From positions 62,001 through 126,000 of the forward strand of contig NZ_JANBBF010000014.1 of the NCBI RefSeq assembly GCF_024648885.1: a stretch of 64,000 bases of DNA. The letters run 5' to 3'. Below, piece after piece: positions 5,516 through 14,607 of this stretch (positions within the stretch are counted from its first letter, which is position 1; the number at the start of each line of letters is the position of its first letter). This stretch comes from Prauserella salsuginis (lineage in GTDB: Bacteria; Actinomycetota; Actinomycetes; Mycobacteriales; Pseudonocardiaceae). Below the pieces are notes generated by a model, which saw only the letters and a list, made by a program, of their open reading frames with translations, had not been told where the DNA came from and ran no database searches. A program made the translations under genes and the position numbers.

Positions 5516-6373
5516 TCACCGTCCGCTGTAGACCGGGAACACGCTGTGCTCACCGTAGTCCTGCGCCCTCAGTTCCCGCAGTGCGGCCATGTCGGAGTCC
5601 GAGATCGTGAAGTCCACCGCGGCGTTGGAGCGCATGTGCTCCGGGTTGGCGGTCTTCGGCAGCGACACGGTGCCCAGCTGCAGGGTGTAGCGGATGCAGA
5701 GCTGCGGAACGGAGACGCCGTACTGCGCGGCCATCGACCGCAACTCGTCGTTGTCCAGGACCGCCCCGTGCGCGATCGGCGAGTACGCCTCCACGAGGAC
5801 GTTCTTGCTCTCGCAGTAGGAGACGAGGTCGGCCGGGGTGTTGCCGGCATGGACCAGCAGTTGGTTCACGTGCGGTGCGACCGTGCAGTTGTCGAGGATG
5901 TTCTCCAGGTCCTTCTGCTGGAAGTTGGACACACCGATGGAGCGGATCCTGCCCGACCGGTAGGCCTCTTCGAGGGCACGCCACGCGGCGCGGTTACCCT
6001 CGGCGTAGGCGCCGCCGCGGAAGTCGTGCCACGGCTGCGGGCTGTGGATGAGCATCAGATCGACGTGGTCGAGCCCCATAGCCGTGAGGGAACCGTCGAT
6101 CGCGGCGACCGCCTCGTCGTAGTCCTTGATCTCGGCGGCCAGCTTGGTCGATACGAATAGCTCGTCACGAGGTACACCACTGCTGCGCACGCCTTCGCCG
6201 ACCTCACGCTCGTTGCCATAGGCCTGAGCGGTGTCGATGTTGCGATAGCCGATCTCGACGGCGTCGCGTACCGCCTGCGGGACCTCGTCGTCGGCGATGA
6301 ACCACGTGCCCAAGCCCAACTTGGGGATCTGGACACCGTTCGACAGCGTGTACTGCTCGCTCAGGATCGTCAT
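5516..6373 (-). CDS. aldo/keto reductase
   Basis: 285 residues, normal for the AKR5 / 2,5-diketo-D-gluconate reductase group. The catalytic tetrad can be counted as Asp47, Tyr52, Lys77 and His110. GLGTWF near the N-terminus and GVSNFQ further on are family signatures, and SLPKTANPEHMRSN is the NADPH-phosphate binding segment. It should reduce carbonyl compounds with NADPH in the cytoplasm. Start is ATG 6373, with GGAGGAGAG 5 to 13 bases upstream. Confidence 0.92.
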   Translation of the reverse strand: MTILSEQYTLSNGVQIPKLGLGTWFIADDEVPQAVRDAVEIGYRNIDTAQAYGNEREVGEGVRSSGVPRDELFVSTKLAAEIKDYDEAVAAIDGSLTAMGLDHVDLMLIHSPQPWHDFRGGAYAEGNRAAWRALEEAYRSGRIRSIGVSNFQQKDLENILDNCTVAPHVNQLLVHAGNTPADLVSYCESKNVLVEAYSPIAHGAVLDNDELRSMAAQYGVSVPQLCIRYTLQLGTVSLPKTANPEHMRSNAAVDFTISDSDMAALRELRAQDYGEHSVFPVYSGR

Positions 6374-6668
6374 GCGCTCTCTCCTCCGTTCGTGGTCGCG
6401 TGCCTCCCGGACGTTCCCTCTTCGACGGCCGAGTGGTGAACGCGGTACGGGCTGGCGGGTTCCCCGATCGGCACCGGCAGGTCACCGCCGCTTCGTCCTG
6501 GCACGCCGCGGCCACGGGACACTTCGGTGCGCCGTGCATCCACGCCGCTCCGACCGACGCGTTGCGATCCTTGCCGTTGACATCGGCGAGCGCCACACGG
6601 AGTTGGGAGACCGTGGTGATGCGCCGGCCCTCCGCTCCAGCCGTCCACCATCCGCACGCGCACTCGAC
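6374..6668. other. gap between two reductase genes, no supported gene
   Basis: About 295 bases between the aldo/keto reductase start and the stop of the RibD-like gene. A minus-strand frame (start 6596) has a cysteine cluster (CPVAAAC...CRC), but it runs into the reductase gene out of frame and has no ribosome site. I see no convincing coding sequence, only the ribosome site and probable promoter of the reductase at the left edge. Confidence 0.4.
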
Positions 6669-7232
6669 TTAGTGTTGCGTGTAATGGAGGTACGCGGTGC
6701 CGTTGTCGAAGATACGGTGCTCGGCGAGGCGCAGGTCGAGTTGCGTGTCCTCCGGCACGGCCCGGAGCCCTCCGCCCACTACCTTGGGCACAACGAAGAA
6801 CCGGAAGTTCTGCACCAAACCCGCGCGGATCGCCGCGCTCGCCGTCGTCGGCCCGAAGATCTCGACCTCGCCCGAAGCCTGCGCAACGATCCGCTCGAGT
6901 TCGCCGAGATCGAGATCGGGAACGAGCCGGTCCCGTTCGGACGCGAGATCGTCTCGCGTCAGGGTCGAGGAAGCCACGATGTGCTCGATGCCGCGCCATC
7001 GGCGGGCGAACTCGTGCTCCGCGGCACCCCAGGAGCCGTCGGCCGGCGCGGACTCCCAGTACCGCATCAGCAGATACGTGTTGCGGCCCAGCACCTCGGT
7101 CGACACCATCCCCATGCGGTCGACATGGGATTGGAACACCTCGGCACTCGGGCCCAACCGGTCGAAGTCACCGTTCGCATCGGCGACGTAACCGTCGAGC
7201 GACATGGTCGCGGTGTAACTCAGCGCTCCCAC
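6669..7232 (-). CDS. dihydrofolate reductase / RibD C-terminal family protein
   Basis: 187 residues, typical for single-domain RibD_C proteins. The opening YTATMSLDGYVADANGDFD is the family NADPH-binding beginning; a STEVLGRNTYLLM stretch, the nucleotide segment EIFGPTTASAAIRAGL and PKVVGGGLRAV follow in the expected order. Proteins of this kind bind NADPH and reduce pterin- or riboflavin-like substrates, but most members in actinomycetes have no assigned substrate. It is neither the essential folA nor ribD, which have different contexts. Confidence 0.85.
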   Translation of the reverse strand: MGALSYTATMSLDGYVADANGDFDRLGPSAEVFQSHVDRMGMVSTEVLGRNTYLLMRYWESAPADGSWGAAEHEFARRWRGIEHIVASSTLTRDDLASERDRLVPDLDLGELERIVAQASGEVEIFGPTTASAAIRAGLVQNFRFFVVPKVVGGGLRAVPEDTQLDLRLAEHRIFDNGTAYLHYTQH

Positions 7233-7946
7233 ACGTCTTCACCCCCACGACCGGTCGTCCGTCGCAATCGCTTCCTGCCGAACGTAGGTCCGCCCCAGTC
7301 ACGCCGCAACCCGTTCCCTCGAGCAGCTGCATCCGGTGTTCGGGTGGTCGCAGCTACTCGCCTCGCATCGAATCGGCTCGCGTGGAGACCGGCGGTTCGT
7401 AGGCCTACCCATGGTTCGTCGACCGGGAGCACGCGGCCGACATGCCGCCCCCACGCGAATGTCGCGGCCACGAACGCACTATCGCGAATCCGCTGCCGCG
7501 ATGGAGGAGTCCGCCGAGTCGAACCCGGCTCACCACCGGCATCATCCGTGACCGAAGCCCCGTCGAGCTGCGTTGGCGCGCGAGAACCCCGCTGTTGAGA
7601 TGCTCCGAACCACTGGCGGCTAACCGCGGAACGCCGCTGCGGGACGGCCGTACCCGCGAGCACTCCGCACCACGCCGGCGTGGCCGAACCGAACCTGGGC
7701 GACACGGCCACGGCACTGCGGACCGCTCCGCGACGTGATCTCGACGGGGACTCGCTACGCCGACGCGCTACGCCGCAGCGGACGTAGTCGCTCAGTCAGC
7801 TACGGAACCGCGACAGCGTCGAGGAAACCATCGGCCCATTAGTACATTGTGGACACTGTGCACACGGTCCAGCGGCGCGACAGCGTGGAGCGCGCGGCGC
7901 TGCGCCACCGAGTTCAGACGGGCCGACATCTCGGCCGCCCCGGCGC
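7233..7946. other. 714-base region without a supported gene
   Basis: Several frames stay open on both strands, but their compositions are those of shadow frames (Arg/Pro/Ser-rich, no domain signature, no ribosome site). A short plus-strand frame from GTG 7849 to TGA 7956 has coding-like third positions but overlaps the end of the acetyltransferase gene. The stretch ATTGTGGACACTGTGCACAC (7846-7865), with the perfect palindrome TGTGCACA, could be an operator remnant. I can support nothing firm here. Confidence 0.4.
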
Positions 7947-9475: not shown

Positions 9476-10276
9476 GTGCACAACATCTGCCTCGACGATG
9501 TCGATCACCTGCCGATCGACGTGCTCCCGATCGGGACGGACTACCCGCCTGCTCACCAGCTGCCCCGGCACACGCATCGCCGGGCGCAGCTGCTGTACGG
9601 AGCGAGCGGAGTGATGCAGGTCGAGACGGACGACGGGTCGTGGACGGTCCCCACCGACCGCGCTGTCCTCATCCCACCGGGCGTCGCGCACGAGGTGCTG
9701 ATGGATGAGGTGACGACATGGAGCATGTACATCGAGCCGGACGCCGTGCCGTGGTGGCCGACCCGCTGCATGGTCGCCGAGATCGGCCCCCTGCTGCGCG
9801 AGCTTCTACGCGCAGCGAACGAGTTCGCTCCGGACTACGACGTCGCGGGACGTGACGGCGCCGTCATCGACCTGGCGCTGCACGAGCTGCGCCGCCTCAC
9901 GCCGACGGCACTGGCGATCTCATTACCCCGCGACGAGGCGTTCCGCTCGCTGTGTCGCGGCTACCTCGCTTCCCCCGACCTGGCCGTGACCAACGAGACC
10001 TGGGCACAAGCCGCGAAGCAGAGCCCGCGGACGTTCGACCGCCACTTCCGCGCTCAGACCGGCAGCAGTCCCGCCGCGTGGCGAGCCCGCGCCCGTCTCC
10101 TCGCCGGCCTACGACAACTGCCTGCCTCGACCATCACCGACGTTGCTGCCCGGCTCGGATACGCCTCACCCGCGGCGTTCACCGCGGCATTCACACGCGC
10201 GTTCGGCGCACCACCGTCACGTTTCGTCCCACGAGCCGGCAGGGCCCCACAACCAGCACCCGTCGCCGACCTGTGA
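9476..10276 (+). CDS. AraC-family regulator with N-terminal cupin
   Basis: 266 residues. The N-terminal 95 residues form a cupin sensor (HQLPRHTHRRAQLLY, TDRAVLIPPGVAHEV). The C-terminal 100 residues form the double helix-turn-helix of AraC proteins (TNETWAQAAKQSPRTFDRHFRAQTG..., then ITDVAARLGYASPAAFTAAFTRAFGAPPSRF). It is divergent from the TauE-type exporter, the arrangement of NimR-NimT-like pairs, so it probably activates or represses that exporter on binding a small ligand. Confidence 0.88.
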   Translation: MHNICLDDVDHLPIDVLPIGTDYPPAHQLPRHTHRRAQLLYGASGVMQVETDDGSWTVPTDRAVLIPPGVAHEVLMDEVTTWSMYIEPDAVPWWPTRCMVAEIGPLLRELLRAANEFAPDYDVAGRDGAVIDLALHELRRLTPTALAISLPRDEAFRSLCRGYLASPDLAVTNETWAQAAKQSPRTFDRHFRAQTGSSPAAWRARARLLAGLRQLPASTITDVAARLGYASPAAFTAAFTRAFGAPPSRFVPRAGRAPQPAPVADL

Positions 10277-10309: not shown

Positions 10310-10316
10310 CCAGACA

Positions 10317-10330
10317 TTGAAGCGGAACTC
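10317..10330. repeat. partial third copy of the ychF 3'-end sequence
   Basis: TTGAAGCGGAACTC matches 14 contiguous bases of the ychF 3' end (13419-13432). On the minus strand it reads V-E-F-R-F-N-V, like the end of YchF, although the stop codon is replaced. It may be a remnant attachment site that marks the outer edge of the island. Confidence 0.5.
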
Positions 10331-10363
10331 CACCCACGTGCCCACGCGTAGGGACATCCAGGC

Positions 10364-10548
10364 TCAATAGTGGAAGCGGCCTGCAGGATCACCAGGTCTT
10401 CGCCGTCGACGGGGCATACCAGTCTGTGCGCGTCGGTGATGCGCCGCGACCACGATCCCTGCGCGCCATACTTGAGCTGCTCAGGCTTGCCGATCCCGGA
10501 GAACGACTCTTGGAGGCAGGCGTCGATGAGCTTGTTGATGCACCCTGC
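10364..10548 (-). pseudogene. decayed YoeB/Txe-family toxin
   Basis: The minus-strand frame reads NKLIDACLQESFSGIGKPEQ, a tail with WSRRITDAHRLV, and DGEDLVILQA, which is the core of YoeB/Txe mRNA interferases (family consensus L-I-x-x-I-x-x-x-P-F-x-G-x-G-K-P-E-x-L-K ... W-S-R-R-I-x-x-x-H-R-L-V-Y ... L-Q-A-R-Y-H-Y). The first 20 to 25 residues are missing, and an in-frame TGA lies at 10549-10551. Near the end one base appears to be lost: adding one C after CTGCAGGCC restores ARFHY-stop at 10364-10366, the family C-terminus. No matching antitoxin is recognisable upstream. Confidence 0.75.
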
Positions 10549-10731
10549 TCAACATGATGAGCCACACAGCGCGGGGCGATCAGATCATCGCCGAGAATCC
10601 GACCTCAACCACGTTCCGTAACCGATCAACCTCTGACGCGAGAGCCGCGCCCAACACCGCATGGTCATCGCCCAGAGCGAATCGCGGATCCGACGCGGTC
10701 TTCCCTCCATGTCGAGCGCTGGAACATCGCC

Positions 10732-11049
10732 TCACTCCGGGGGCCGTGTGCCGAGGCCCCTTCGGGCGCGCTCCTTTCGCCTCACCCGGATCTCCACGAC
10801 GACGAGAGACACATGGAACCACGCGATGAGCCCGCACACGACGGCAAAGATCCAGAACACGAGCATCAGCCGGGCGGCGTCCCCCATGTCGAGCACCGCG
10901 ATCGACATCACGATGCAGCCAACCGCGCCGAGCGCCGCCCCGAGCGCCCACAGCACGCCCCAACCCAGGCTGATTCCCCAGGTCCGCGCCTCCGGGCCGA
11001 CACCCTGTGGATCCGCGTTCCGCGTGCGCCGCTTACCGCGTTGTGACAT
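10732..11049 (-). CDS. small two-helix membrane protein
   Basis: 105 residues. A charged N-terminus (SQRGKRRTRN) is followed by two hydrophobic helices at about residues 28-52 and 60-85 and a basic tail (RVRRKERARRGLG). Nothing identifies a function. It lies between the partial and the full copy of the ychF-end repeat, so it may belong to an older insertion. Confidence 0.55.
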   Translation of the reverse strand: MSQRGKRRTRNADPQGVGPEARTWGISLGWGVLWALGAALGAVGCIVMSIAVLDMGDAARLMLVFWIFAVVCGLIAWFHVSLVVVEIRVRRKERARRGLGTRPPE

Positions 11050-11202
11050 TCGGGAACTCCTCCGGGCCGCCCTCAGCCGTCCCAGTTCCCGACTGCCCGG
11101 CGCATGACGTGAACCAGCGGGTCGACACGACCCTGAGCTCGGCTCGCCAGCACTCTACGTGCAGACGGGACCGCCCCGCCCCAGACGTCAGCCCGGCATT
11201 CC

Positions 11203-11221
11203 TCACACGTTGAAGCGGAAC
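11203..11221. repeat. candidate attachment site, distal copy (ychF 3' end)
   Basis: TCACACGTTGAAGCGGAAC is identical to 13412-13430, where it is the last five codons, stop codon and one extra base of ychF. In this copy it is not attached to a ychF gene. The two copies face the same way and bracket 2.2 kb. GTCAGCAC occurs just inside this copy (11271) and again near the other end (13271). Confidence 0.7.
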
Positions 11222-11326
11222 GTCTGATGCCATGCTGTGACCTGCATATACGCCCTGTTGATCTAGCAAAGTCAGCACGGGTCAGCTCACCACTGGGCGC
11301 CCTTGCCCGATGCCCGGTATCGAAGC

Positions 11327-11467
11327 GTGCCACAGCTCAACATCTTCGGCCTACGCCTGTCGTACGGTCGCGAAGCGGTCTGCTGGTTCACGATGTCCGA
11401 AGCCTTCAAGGTCTGGGGCAGGTACGACGCAGCGCTCGGCGAGCTATATATCTACCGCCAGTGGTAG
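11327..11467 (+). CDS. small ORF in the island
   Basis: 46 residues from GTG 11327 (VPQLNIFGLRLSYGREAV then CWFTMSEAFKVWGRYDAALG and an end in YIYRQW). The amino-acid composition looks like a real folded peptide rather than a shadow frame, but there is no clear ribosome site. The frame is open back to 11267. It may be a fragment of a larger lost gene. Not recognised. Confidence 0.3.
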   Translation: MPQLNIFGLRLSYGREAVCWFTMSEAFKVWGRYDAALGELYIYRQW

Positions 11468-11560
11468 TCATCCGGACCACGGCCTTCTTGACATCCGTGG
11501 TCCTCACCAGTCCCCGAGCTGGCCCTGGGCTGACTGACGCCGTCCCAGGCGGGCAACCTA

Positions 11561-11586
11561 CGGCACCGGGCCGCAAGGCCCCGCCG
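11561..11586 (-). terminator. candidate terminator after the DUF3558 gene
   Basis: A hairpin with GGGCC-GCAA-GGCCC at its core, extended by further CGG/CCG pairs, lies about 7 bases past the stop codon of the minus-strand lipoprotein gene. It has no U-tract, as is usual in these genomes. Confidence 0.45.
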
Positions 11587-11592
11587 TTCGGA

Positions 11593-12231
11593 TTAGCCGT
11601 TCGCCTTCAGGTTGCTCACAACCCAGCTAGCGACCTCCTGAACGGGTTTGCACGGGTCCTTGCCCTCCCGCTCCGCGTCCGTCCCCAACGTGCCGGTAAC
11701 CGATACGGCGTATTCGTTGGCGATACCGACCACGGCGGTACACATCGGGGCTTCGGCGCGCGACTTGTACGTCACTGCCGGGTACTCCTCCACGGGTGCA
11801 ACTTCGTTGAACACCTCGGATTGCGGCTTGGCGTTGGCATACGTCGAGCTGAGTCCCTCGCCGGTCTCCGTCAGAAAGCCGACGATAAACGAGGATTGAG
11901 CGGACAAGTGAGTCCATCGGCATGACGTGCCGAGCTCTTCCTTATCAGTGCGCTTGCCCGGCTCTGCGCCCTCTCCGAGAGCGGTCGTGACCTGCTCTCG
12001 CGTCAGCGTGTCGCACGGGTCGCCGGAAACAGCCGATTCCGGCAGCGGGTTGTCTACGGCAGGCGCCCCACTGTGCGGCAGGTCCGATGTTGCTTCACTG
12101 CTAGCGGGTGCCGACGACGGGACCGAAGGCGCAGGGGAGCCCTGCGGTTCGGCCTGCCCATCCTCCCCAGAACATGCGGAAGCCAGCACCGCCAGCGAAC
12201 CGACCGCCAGCGTGGCAAGTGCACGCTTCAA
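11593..12231 (-). CDS. DUF3558 domain lipoprotein
   Basis: 212 residues from TTG 12231. The N-terminus is a lipoprotein signal (LKRALATLAVGSLAVLASAC, lipobox L-A-S-A-C). A Ser/Pro-rich linker and a DUF3558 domain starting DPCDTLTREQVTTALG follow, with Cys residues before W and in PMC and PCK. The TTG overlaps the TGA of the upstream gene as TTGA, so the pair is translationally coupled. DUF3558 lipoproteins are abundant in Pseudonocardiaceae and Mycobacterium, are anchored outside the membrane, and have no defined activity. It lies inside the putative element and is the main cargo. Confidence 0.85.
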   Translation of the reverse strand: MKRALATLAVGSLAVLASACSGEDGQAEPQGSPAPSVPSSAPASSEATSDLPHSGAPAVDNPLPESAVSGDPCDTLTREQVTTALGEGAEPGKRTDKEELGTSCRWTHLSAQSSFIVGFLTETGEGLSSTYANAKPQSEVFNEVAPVEEYPAVTYKSRAEAPMCTAVVGIANEYAVSVTGTLGTDAEREGKDPCKPVQEVASWVVSNLKANG

Positions 12232-12701
12232 TTGAAGAGTCCTCCTCCATCGTCTCCACCGGACTTCTTCACGTCCTTGCCCGCCTGCTCGTCGGTCTCG
12301 TTGTAGACGTCGAGCGCCTTTTGTAGCTTGTCCGCAATGTCGCGGTAGCGCTTCCACAAGACATACTGGTGATCCGCCCCTATTCGGAACATCTCCACCG
12401 CGACGTCTTGGAAGTGCCGACTTGCTGTGTCTTCAGCAGGCGGTTGGGCGTTACGCAGGCGCTCAGAGTCTTCGACCGCTTGCCTCACTCGGTCGGCGGC
12501 CCATTTGGCCTTCCGAACCATGCCCTCAGCGGTCTCGGGGTCCATCATGAAGCCACCGGCGATCGGCCCGGACGTGACTGCACCCATTGCCCAGCCGCCC
12601 TGAGTCGCGATGCCCTTATCGCCCTTGATCGCGAAGGCTGCCTGGTCCCAGAAACTGTCACCCTCGGTACCCGATCCAGACGCGCTCACGTCGTCTGCCA
12701 T
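12228..12701 (-). CDS. ESX/WXG-like helical protein paired with DUF3558
   Basis: 157 residues, mostly helical after residue 55 (ETAEGMVRKAKWAADRVRQA... and a long segment ending in ADKLQKALDVYNETD). A Gly-rich middle (GGWAMGAVTSGPIAGGFMM) and a Gly/Asp tail suggest a secreted or surface-targeted partner. Genes of this kind often precede DUF3558 lipoproteins in Pseudonocardiaceae and may be type VII secretion substrates, but a classical W-x-G motif is not present. GGGGAG lies 11 bases before ATG 12701. Confidence 0.6.
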   Translation of the reverse strand: MADDVSASGSGTEGDSFWDQAAFAIKGDKGIATQGGWAMGAVTSGPIAGGFMMDPETAEGMVRKAKWAADRVRQAVEDSERLRNAQPPAEDTASRHFQDVAVEMFRIGADHQYVLWKRYRDIADKLQKALDVYNETDEQAGKDVKKSGGDDGGGLFN

Positions 12702-12856
12702 GCCCAGCGCTCCCCATCACTTCATAGGCCAACGGAAGCCTAGCGTAACGGCCCGCTGACTCACCGGGGCAACTTCCGACAGTCTCCTGCGGTCGGGGCA
12801 GTGTGCCGTCAACCACAAGCGGGTATTCCGCTTCCTATGAGGTGAGGTGAGTACTC

Positions 12857-13192
12857 ATGCCCTTCGGGTTCAATCTGCCGGGTCCGTTCACCTGGCATCG
12901 ACAGGACAAGTCCGGCAAGAAGTTGCTACATCAACAGCAGCAACAGGAAGCCGTTGACATGCTCCAGCGGGCCGCGGAGAGGAGCTTCCACAAGGATTTG
13001 ATCAAGTACCTCGGCGAAGCGAAGGGTACTGAGGCAATCTTCGAGTTGAACCGCTTGAAGGGCGTTTCTGACGTCCTTTACAGCCGCCTAGAGAAGGACC
13101 TGCGCGCCCGAGTGAAGAGGGTCAGGACAGACGATAGGGCCGCCAGAGCTGAGGCCAGAGCGAAAGCCAAGGAAGCTAAGAAGGCAAACTAG
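12857..13192 (+). CDS. small charged helical protein in the island
   Basis: 111 residues, Gln/Lys/Arg/Ala-rich, with a predicted long helix (KKLLHQQQQQEAVDMLQRA...) and a Lys/Ala tail (RAEARAKAKEAKKAN). GAGGTGAG lies 5 to 12 bases before the ATG. Codon use is less GC-rich than in the flanking core genes, consistent with transfer. No domain recognised; a nucleic-acid-binding or structural role would be a guess. Confidence 0.6.
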   Translation: MPFGFNLPGPFTWHRQDKSGKKLLHQQQQQEAVDMLQRAAERSFHKDLIKYLGEAKGTEAIFELNRLKGVSDVLYSRLEKDLRARVKRVRTDDRAARAEARAKAKEAKKAN

Positions 13193-13224
13193 TCGCCGAC
13201 CGTCCCGACAGCGACTCTTCCCCG

Positions 13225-13256
13225 GAGGGCCCCGGCCTGCAAAGGCCAGGGCCTCT
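13225..13256 (+). terminator. hairpin terminator after the charged small protein
   Basis: GGCCCCGGCCT (13228-13238), loop GCAA, AGGCCAGGGCC (13243-13253): an 11-bp stem with one mismatch, located 35 bases after the stop codon. Confidence 0.65.
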
Positions 13257-13411
13257 CTACATCTCAGGAAGTCAGCACCAAATCAGCACATTCCCGAGAA
13301 CACTAGGGAGCACTTCATGCCACATCTGGGTATGTCATGCATAGGTATTAGTGCCTGACCTGCTCGTTTGATACCCGTGACCAGGGGCGATAATGGCACC
13401 ATTTGACCAGG

Positions 13412-13430
13412 TCACACGTTGAAGCGGAAC
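13412..13430. repeat. candidate attachment site, ychF-proximal copy
   Basis: TCACACGTTGAAGCGGAAC forms the end of ychF on the minus strand (F-R-F-N-V-stop plus one base). It is identical to 11203-11221 and partly to 10317-10330. Confidence 0.7.
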
Positions 13431-14494
13431 TCGACCACGTCGCCGTCGTGCATGACGTATTCCTTGCCCTCCATGCGGACCTTGCCCGCGGAGCGCGCGT
13501 CGGCCATGGAGCCCGCCGCCATGAGGTCGTCGTACGAGATGATCTCGGCCTTGATGAAGCCGCGCTCGAAGTCCGTGTGGATGACGCCCGCCGCCTGCGG
13601 CGCGGTGGCGCCCTGCGGAATCGTCCACGCGCGCGCCTCCTTCGGGCCCGCGGTGAGGTAGGTCTGCAGACCGAGCGTGTGGAACCCGGCACGGGCCAGC
13701 GCGTTCAACCCCGGCTCCTCCTGTCCGACCGATTCGAGCAGCTCCTGCACCGCCTCCTCGTCGTCCAGCTCGAGCAGCTCGGCCTCCACCTTCGCGTCCA
13801 GGAACACGGCGTCCGCGGGCGCGACCAGCTCGGTCAGCTCGGCACGCTTGGCCTCATCGGCGAGCACGCCCTCGTCGGCGTTGAACACGTACAGGAACGG
13901 CTTGATCGTCAGCAGGCTCAGCTCCCGCAGCAGCTCGACGTCGACCTCCTGCTGCGCGGCGAACAGCGTGCGGCCGGAGTCGAGGATCTCCTTGGCCTTC
14001 TTCGCGTTCTCGAGGGCCGGGCGCGCCTCCTTCTTGGTGCGCGCCTCCTTCTCCATCCGCGTCAACGCCTTCTCGAGCGTCTGCAGGTCGCCGAGGATGA
14101 GCTCGGTGTTGATCGTCTCGATGTCCGACAGCGGATCGATCGTGCCGTCGACGTGCGTGACGTCGGGGTCGTCGAACACGCGGATGACCTGGCAGATCGC
14201 GTTGGCCTCACGGATGTTGGCGAGGAACTTGTTGCCGAGCCCCGCCCCCTCGGAGGCGCCCTTGACGATGCCCGCGATGTCCACGAACGACACGGTCGCC
14301 GGGACGGTCTTCGCCGAGGCGAACATCTCGGCCAGCTTGTCCAGGCGCGAATCGGGCAGCGGCACGACACCGACATTGGGCTCGATCGTCGCGAACGGGT
14401 AGTTCGCCGCGAGCACGTCGTTCCGCGTCAGGGCGTTGAACAGGGTCGACTTGCCGACGTTGGGCAGGCCTACGATGCCGAGGGTCAAACTCAC
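13412..14494 (-). CDS. ychF: redox-regulated ATPase YchF
   Basis: 360 residues from GTG 14494, the usual length. The protein begins SLTLGIVGLPNVGKST (P-loop N-V-G-K-S-T), continues with FVDIAGIVKGASEG (switch II), a coiled-coil insertion, and the C-terminal TGS domain ending GDVVEFRFNV. YchF is a conserved Obg-family protein that prefers ATP, binds ribosomes and affects stress responses. The open frame extends 28 codons upstream, but those residues are not family sequence. The 3' end is the apparent insertion point of the neighbouring element, which restores the normal C-terminus. Confidence 0.97.
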   Translation of the reverse strand: MSLTLGIVGLPNVGKSTLFNALTRNDVLAANYPFATIEPNVGVVPLPDSRLDKLAEMFASAKTVPATVSFVDIAGIVKGASEGAGLGNKFLANIREANAICQVIRVFDDPDVTHVDGTIDPLSDIETINTELILGDLQTLEKALTRMEKEARTKKEARPALENAKKAKEILDSGRTLFAAQQEVDVELLRELSLLTIKPFLYVFNADEGVLADEAKRAELTELVAPADAVFLDAKVEAELLELDDEEAVQELLESVGQEEPGLNALARAGFHTLGLQTYLTAGPKEARAWTIPQGATAPQAAGVIHTDFERGFIKAEIISYDDLMAAGSMADARSAGKVRMEGKEYVMHDGDVVEFRFNV

Positions 14495-14607
14495 GGCTCG
14501 CAAGTGTACGTGCCGTCTGCCTGCCACTCGCGTCCCGTACCGACGCCCCGGCCGCCGTGTCCGATTTCCGCGAGTCACGGCGCTGACCTGGTGGCAGTAT
14601 CGACGGC

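Follow-up and report, generated by a model that had tools for sequence, protein, structure and literature searches.

The 3' end of ychF as a likely docking site for small gene cassettes without a recombinase of their own in Actinomycetota

Integrons are the textbook route for the capture of single genes, and their attC sites follow the consensus order RYYYAAC...GTTRRRY with a foldable bottom strand. Other elements accumulate at the 3' ends of conserved genes, like the cis-mobilisable elements (CIME) and integrative mobilisable elements (IME) found for instance at fda of Streptococcus thermophilus, or the staphylococcal cassette chromosome (SCC) at rlmH, whose elements of tens of kb are moved by large serine recombinases (Ccr). 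Integrons are extremely rare in Actinobacteria (PMC9024848). A full Streptococcus pneumoniae prophage with its own integrase adjoins ychF and inserts on the promoter side of that gene, at an unrelated 14-bp bacterial attachment site (attB) (PMC6375853). We analysed here a stretch of 64,000 nucleotides of Prauserella salsuginis (Pseudonocardiaceae; assembly GCF_024648885.1, contig NZ_JANBBF010000014.1, positions 62,001 to 126,000 of the forward strand), called the window hereafter, in which foreign segments lie directly downstream of ychF. Comparison with other genomes makes it likely that Actinomycetota have a gene-cassette system that docks at the 3' end of ychF.

The window carries two exact copies of the 19-mer TCACACGTTGAAGCGGAAC, at 11203-11221 and 13412-13430, while 100 shuffles of the window contain none. 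The 13412 copy, read as its reverse complement, spells the final codons and the stop of ychF, a gene on the reverse strand (...FRFNV-stop; Pfam YchF-GTPase_C). A 14-mer, TTGAAGCGGAACTC, is found at only two places of the whole 5.64-Mb genome, window positions 10317 and 13419. The first-pass annotation had read the two exact repeats, the second as the ychF end, as the borders of one integrase-less 2.2-kb element. The repeats and the insertion at the ychF 3' end are borne out, the latter by differing contents at one and the same junction in the window and in two relatives of the genus (G003 and G005). The single element is not: a search allowing up to three mismatches discloses a third copy with three mismatches at 10310-10328, missed at first, which divides the insert downstream of ychF into two tandem segments, 10310-11203 (~0.9 kb) and 11203-13412 (2.2 kb).

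The site recurs throughout the family. Of 80 genomes, 9 contain an 18-mer, the window's own genome among them, and each of its 10 occurrences is either a ychF end or a copy downstream of the gene; the dispersal of the 19-mer over many unrelated loci, named beforehand as the outcome that would speak against an insertion site, was thus not encountered. Several of the 80 relatives have extra copies of the ychF end downstream of the gene, 66 bp to 32 kb away. With one genome taken per species, a degenerate 20-mer (at most one mismatch) is present in 360 of 390 family genomes, and in 34 of the 390, as counted from the tables, two or more copies share a strand and a contig within 6 kb. In four genomes outside the 34 (G159, G217, G271, G413) same-strand copies also number two or more, but they are widely spaced or lie on separate contigs. 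The contents were read in 25 of the 34, comprising the window, 4 relatives and 20 further genomes. The suspicion that this is an undescribed actinobacterial hotspot agrees with these counts and with the literature listings, which show no account of ychF 3'-end integration or of cassettes there in actinobacteria, preprints and most subscription papers being outside its coverage.

Among thirty open reading frames (ORFs), chosen by length from 19 cassette loci of the family, there are matches to the Pfam families Abi_2, AbiEii, HipA_C, HIRAN, Fic (twice), Mrr_cat (twice) and Schlafen AlbA_2, as well as MFS, AraC, PhzF, glyoxalase, glycosyltransferase and others; 10 of the 30 have no family. A recombinase family is found by Pfam in none of the 30, serine recombinase models not having been run across the genomes. 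In two genomes, G008 (L044) and G044 (L049), the left half-site adjoining ychF is replaced and YchF ends in EFRTGLTSHSHK and EFRHGGTSGSGKK instead of EFRFNV; in G008 the new ychF end recurs downstream as a tandem series.

The inner side of many distal copies is conserved as ...GGAACTCSACCGnGTTCCGnCACnGAnCAAC. A pattern built from it and scanned over named genomes returned 114 stretches, nearly all from Actinomycetota (Microbacterium, Brachybacterium, Brevibacterium, Kocuria, Arthrobacter, Demequina, Propionibacteriaceae, Nocardia, Amycolatopsis and others). At least two sites are present in 92 of the 114 loci and at least three in 39. Where ychF is visible (54 loci), every site lies downstream of it in 53, the exception, L174, showing a ychF fragment only. 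In ten loci without visible ychF, the gene is located by coordinates ~1-15 kb away on the expected side and strand (10/10), the common contig having been verified, by its length, only for Thermocrispum. The 50 ychF-anchored arrays have 1 to 6 site copies each, ychF's own included, and their 82 gaps have a median length of 1.19 kb. None of 273 copies is inverted, and 192 of the 273, again with ychF's own, encode FRFNV-stop in the ychF frame. Site conservation has a sharp onset at the YchF stop codon and, in 222 copies, persists to roughly position 49, part of positions 7-31 being imposed by the scan pattern. Among the stretches, L192, a contig of a metagenome-assembled genome (MAG) labelled Bacillota, contains canonical sites; it is likely misbinned, a real transfer being the other possibility. 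Several genera display paired left half-sites exactly 23 bp apart, often adjoining ychF, perhaps the scar of a recombination or excision step (in oriented coordinates, L089 3129/3152, L099 3179/3202, L155 4659/4682, L179 4598/4621, L196 6052/6075, L237 5192/5215, L246 5090/5113, and L228 2417/2440 and 6552/6575).

The array cargo includes toxin-antitoxin, Abi, Fic, HipA, restriction, acetyltransferase and metal-ATPase genes. Families listed for 125 ORFs from 75 cassettes include HTH, GNAT, AAA_33, HepT-like, HigB-like and P-type ATPase proteins, and no recombinase is among the best 25 of the 117 Pfam families matched. PADLOC assigns AbiEii, AbiTii and candidate systems (best 25 of 31 families). 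Profile searches for the ychF-linked integrase family described below and for four other integrases are negative in all 114 loci (0/114), IntI not having been searched by a model of its own. Cass2, an effector-binding family associated with integrons, is matched by two cassette ORFs, and an aminoglycoside-2''-adenylyltransferase family by three.

An all-against-all comparison of 187 cassette bodies, in which pairs from one genome fetched twice (e.g. L095/L158) were ignored, indicates that cassettes travel singly between families. A 1313-bp cassette is 98.9-99.1% identical in Brachybacterium massiliense, a Brevibacterium MAG and Micrococcales bacterium KH10; between the latter two it reaches 99.1% at the DNA level against 73.7% for ychF. 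Nocardia farcinica NCTC11134 has the same cassette (99.1%), bounded by sites that lie exactly 1313 bp from each other and belong to a series of copies starting 8.6 kb from the ychF end; that end itself falls below site scoring. The N. farcinica record L301 (NZ_LN868939.1, 2.66 Mb), filed as plasmid 2, carries ychF and looks chromosomal. In three aligned loci the 1313-bp cassette has a different left neighbour each time. Further cases are a 1.87-kb cassette (99.0%, Brachybacterium massiliense and Thermocrispum municipale), a 2.7-kb cassette with ArsR-like and P-type ATPase genes (97.9%, Propionibacteriaceae P6A17 and KH10; ychF 70.2%), a 1.19-kb cassette (93.6%, Arachnia and Agrococcus; ychF 71.8%) and, within one genus, an AlbA_2 cassette (97.3%; ychF 86.2%). 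The identity block begins at the distal site in two of three pairs aligned across their borders, the third sharing the flank as well. Near-identical cassettes in different families, with no matching recombinase gene found in the arrays, look like an integron-like trade of single genes. Plasmids are not supported as cassette vectors: three plasmid regions with metal-ATPase genes, of 52 records, lack the site. In a plasmid search with the window DNA (52 records), the 20 matches listed cover the ychF part only.

The borders of shared cassettes indicate where strands were joined. At the distal sites of six groups the outer flank is unrelated in five, and single-base differences reach position 12-15, in two groups 21; the left neighbour is shared in the 2.76-kb group, so that its distal side is uninformative. 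At the proximal sites the sequences agree from the cassette body up to position 24, and the agreement breaks off at 25-27 (three informative groups). The alignments thus place the change of parentage inside the 50-bp site, between positions 15 and 25, and the crossover probably between 21 and 25, inside TCSACC, if the differences at 21 derive from the recipient. Isolated differences at positions 3, 12, 30 and 34, and several others in the AbiEii pair, are compatible with later mutation. The arms GAAGCGGAAC and GTTCCGnCAC flank the crossover as an inverted repeat, an arrangement that a tyrosine recombinase would be expected to use. Beyond a hairpin in one site (z -3.6), the data do not support a folded single strand as the substrate, because covariation between the halves is little (mutual information at most 0.072 bits for 17 pairs tested) and several position pairs are mostly unpaired (e.g. 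19/26); a second site folds no better than shuffles (z -1.1).

Repeats, arrays, a single orientation, transfer of single cassettes between families and the parentage change inside the site are what is observed for the following model. A cassette would form a circle carrying one 50-bp imperfect palindrome, in which the left half corresponds to the C-terminal codons of YchF with the stop and the right half forms a conserved arm. Strand exchange within TCSACC between the circle and ychF, by a tyrosine recombinase, would place the cassette directly behind ychF and give the gene a new, equivalent 3' end. Repeated rounds could build a head-to-tail array of cassettes with one to few genes (defence, toxin-antitoxin, metabolic or metal genes), none of them encoding a recombinase. 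The window would hold a stack of two such segments, either old and partly decayed or of a related class. The first-pass term cis-mobilisable is too narrow for a site that elsewhere carries arrays of single cassettes; array cassettes evidently move one by one, and probably in trans.

Larger integrase-bearing elements, whose presence at this site the first pass had proposed to look for, do exist. The viral contig G430 encodes a tyrosine integrase whose gene stops 21 bp short of a site copy. Relatives of it at E 1e-60 or better are present in 12 of the 390 family genomes, and in 10 of these 12 (11 of 13 loci) the integrase lies directly against ychF or against a repeat of its end. Across a sample of the whole class, 20 of 394 genomes have a match at 1e-70, and at 3 of 21 loci the gene adjoins ychF. 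The integrase gene ends 10-180 bp from the site in six loci read. These ychF-linked integrases belong to PF00589, and among solved structures they come closest to the Int proteins of 6en0 and 6emy (E 5.7e-12). The right arm of the site adjoining the G430 integrase scores 15.0 on the cassette profile, where 200,000 random places score at most 12.6; the other three viral contigs give 21.4 (L072, a record without PF00589 match), 10.3 (L070) and 7.1 (L075). The G020 integrase has no match in 50,697 phage records. At both ends of contig 58 of G262 (L134/L135) the same integrase and site occur in inverted order, possibly an assembly palindrome. The tyrosine integrases abutting ychF may be the cassette mobiliser, for which they are the best candidate.

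The window locus itself starts, on the host side, with an AraC-type regulator gene (9476..10276, + strand; Pfam HTH_18) whose product is 94-95% identical in L053 and L043. It is followed by the distal site copy (10310..10334, +), probably the oldest, which consists of the left half only (left-half score 41.5). Segment A (10335..11202, GC 66.6%), between two site copies, holds a 105-aa ORF (10732..11049, -) with no Pfam family above cut-off. The middle 19-mer copy (11203..11221, +) departs from the site consensus directly after GGAAC. Segment B (11222..13411) has a GC content of 61.7% against 69.9% for the window, below all 310 sliding windows of the same size (lowest 61.8). Its first ORF, predicted from translation, encodes 46 aa (11327..11467, +) and adjoins the middle copy. 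The DUF3558 lipoprotein ORF (11593..12357, -; Pfam E 2.2e-25) probably has an internal start near 12235, and relatives of its product are encoded downstream of ychF in G003 (79% identical) and G002 (65%). The 157-aa ESX/EspC-like protein (12228..12701, -) has a weak Pfam match to T7SS_ESX_EspC, below cut-off (E 0.0012), and homologues in G003 (71%) and G002 (55%). The 111-aa ORF (12857..13192, +) has no Pfam family above cut-off and no match in G003. The ychF-side flank (13270..13411, +) contains candidate integrase arm sites in its motif repeats: a TCAGCAC pair (13272-13278, 13283-13289), TGACCTG (13356-13362) and a TGACCAGG pair (13378-13385, 13404-13411). The exact 19-mer copy at 13412..13430 (+), on the attB side, forms the 3' end of the target gene ychF (13412..14497, -; YchF-GTPase_C E 3.1e-39, MMR_HSR1), whose frame is intact to the stop (...VVEFRFNV). 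This inventory agrees with the first pass as regards the DUF3558 protein, the ESX-like partner, the two small ORFs, the TCAGCAC and TGACCAGG pairs and the absence of a recombinase: Pfam detects none in the four ORFs scanned between the outer repeats, an integrase profile and four integrase queries have no match in the window, and the genome has no match to the ychF-linked integrase at 1e-60.

In the genus, the tauE- and araC-type host flank is 90-92% identical in DNA among the window, G003 and G005. Its homology with the window stops at 10322 (G003) and 10339 (G005), within or just past the 10310 copy, and from this junction with the same araC-family flank the contents differ up to ychF. G005 has a ychF-end copy at the same junction, and its site copies lie 7.3, 2.2 and 0.9 kb from ychF. 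The insert of G003 measures 1.7 kb and carries DUF3558 and ESX-like genes with, by eye, only a degenerate distal repeat; this genome bears on the outcome foreseen as an argument against insertion, the same gene order without repeats in all relatives. In G006 the host flank is ~4.3 kb from ychF. Canonical right arms are present at the same place within the genus in G004 (27.7) and G005 (10.4); other copies there do not score. The 140-bp ychF-side flank is kept in the window, G003 and G006: both TCAGCAC motifs are kept in G003 and one in G006, and the first TGACCAG is kept in both genomes while the second (TGACCAGG at 13404) is absent from both. In G002 (L052), a partial second DUF3558/ESX-like pair lies beside the full pair downstream of ychF (87-248 and 331-1363).

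How the window segments fit among these elements is less certain than the array system. They have attachment sites of a known element on both sides and no recombinase, as CIME do. An integrase inside the element, as in a prophage or an actinomycete integrative and conjugative element (AICE), is found only in larger elements elsewhere, neither in the window nor in the 114 loci. The segments could accordingly be remnants of an integrase-encoding prophage or AICE at ychF that lost the integrase and most genes, CIME-like and outside the cassette system, a reading that we hold quite possible without favouring it. Integrase-bearing elements are present at the site, the 11203 copy lacks a canonical right arm, and a truncated integrase lies just outside a site copy in G032; the arm-like 140-bp flank is common to G003 and G006, and inspection by eye of G006 between ychF and the host flank (L054, ~5600-7720) suggests an ORF of phage-lysin type (peptidoglycan-binding) and an insertion of IS3 type. 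However, loss from a larger element leaves the transfer of single cassettes across families and the uniform arrays elsewhere unexplained, and DUF3558 with the ESX-like gene forms a compact unit in three genomes of the genus. In our reading the window contains two insertions of some age behind ychF, which are partly decayed or belong to a related class; segment B is probably related to the integrase-type element whose flank it has in common with G003 and G006, and the window's own segments may have arrived by the cassette route.

The remaining explanations concern the repeats and arrays as such. Integron clusters without integrase (CALIN) with unusual attC sites would account for arrays, a palindromic site, small cassettes, GNAT, HigB, HepT and Cass2 cargo and the hairpin of one site. 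Yet the site polarity is GTT...AAC from 5' to 3', opposite to the attC order, the site is bound to the coding end of ychF, Rfam, which may hold no attC model, has no match at the site in four array loci, and neither the second site's folding nor the covariation between halves follows suit, so that we hold this origin very improbable. Spread of cassettes by homologous recombination through ychF and flanking DNA, rather than site-specifically, would be in keeping with the conserved ychF on one side of the arrays, but ychF differs by 26-30% where cassettes are 98-99% identical, and identity begins inside the site with unrelated left neighbours in most groups compared; it appears slightly more improbable still. 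Local duplication of the ychF end, or a chance repeat, might be suspected from the window, where the repeat is only 19 bp long. It is the least credible of all, given the shuffles, the contents that differ between copies across genomes and the foreign GC of the window segment.

Several results weigh against a docking site for cassettes, or against its extension to the window. The window copies at 10310 and 11203 have no canonical right arm (scores -25.8 and -40.6), and no flank motif like that of 13270-13411 is seen to be shared among 41 general cassettes. The scan pattern forces one canonical site in each of the 114 loci. Within arrays, the copy nearer to ychF is cleaner in 20 comparisons, the farther one in 23, with 15 ties, and an order with older copies more decayed is not seen. 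Many cassette pairs are only 67-90% identical, and in a separate comparison set cassettes are clearly closer than ychF in only 2 of 13 comparisons; as far as identities tell, recent transfer holds for some cassettes and not for all. The empty site that the first pass had proposed to look for in related strains was not found in clean form, the nearest, in G170 (Amycolatopsis-type genomes), being a remnant. Distal ends were not found for most integrase-bearing elements, the G020 candidate being weak. The mobiliser is a candidate and not a result because none of 25 array genomes has the candidate integrase family at E 1e-60, a relative at 1e-30 being present in 7 of the 25.

If the model is true, a cassette system of their own would explain how actinobacteria of soil, compost, cheese and animals acquire defence, toxin-antitoxin and resistance-like genes one at a time. 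Since the limits of the site are known nearly base by base, cassettes can be listed in any genome. The arrays offer an inventory of small genes without known function, among which new anti-phage systems may be frequent, and the search for the missing recombinase turns into a well-defined question open to experiment.

Among known systems, the pneumococcal prophage resembles this locus in phage use of the ychF neighbourhood, and differs in the side of ychF and in attB. Tyrosine integrases of actinomycete phages and AICE are close in that PF00589 integrases abut ychF in some genomes, whereas no integrase was found in the cassettes. SCC has in common tandem elements at the 3' end of a conserved gene, whose C-terminus is kept, many of them without recombinase; the recombinases at the ychF site are however of tyrosine type and the cassettes measure ~1 kb. 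CIME and IME share att-flanked segments without integrase, accreted in stacks at a gene 3' end, but the ychF cassettes are small, have a defined 50-bp site, move between families and reach up to 6 site copies in 8 kb. The nearest working model is the integron. Its arrays are likewise head-to-tail series of small cassettes with one palindromic site each in one orientation, with single cassettes common to distant hosts and a cargo of small-protein, toxin-antitoxin and resistance-like genes; small cassettes with one site each, in the same orientation and exchanged between arrays, are established for the array loci, without extension to the window. The ychF arrays differ in having no integrase of the ychF-linked family in the loci (IntI not having been searched by its own model), in a site sequence and GTT/AAC polarity unlike attC, in the ychF 3' end as docking site and in their Actinomycetota hosts. 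We are inclined to regard them, with somewhat less assurance than the docking site itself, as a second, independently evolved cassette system of Actinomycetota, with small integrase-free cassettes built on a 50-bp palindrome that doubles as the C-terminal codons of YchF, one-way arrays, exchange between orders, and defence and stress genes as a main stock.

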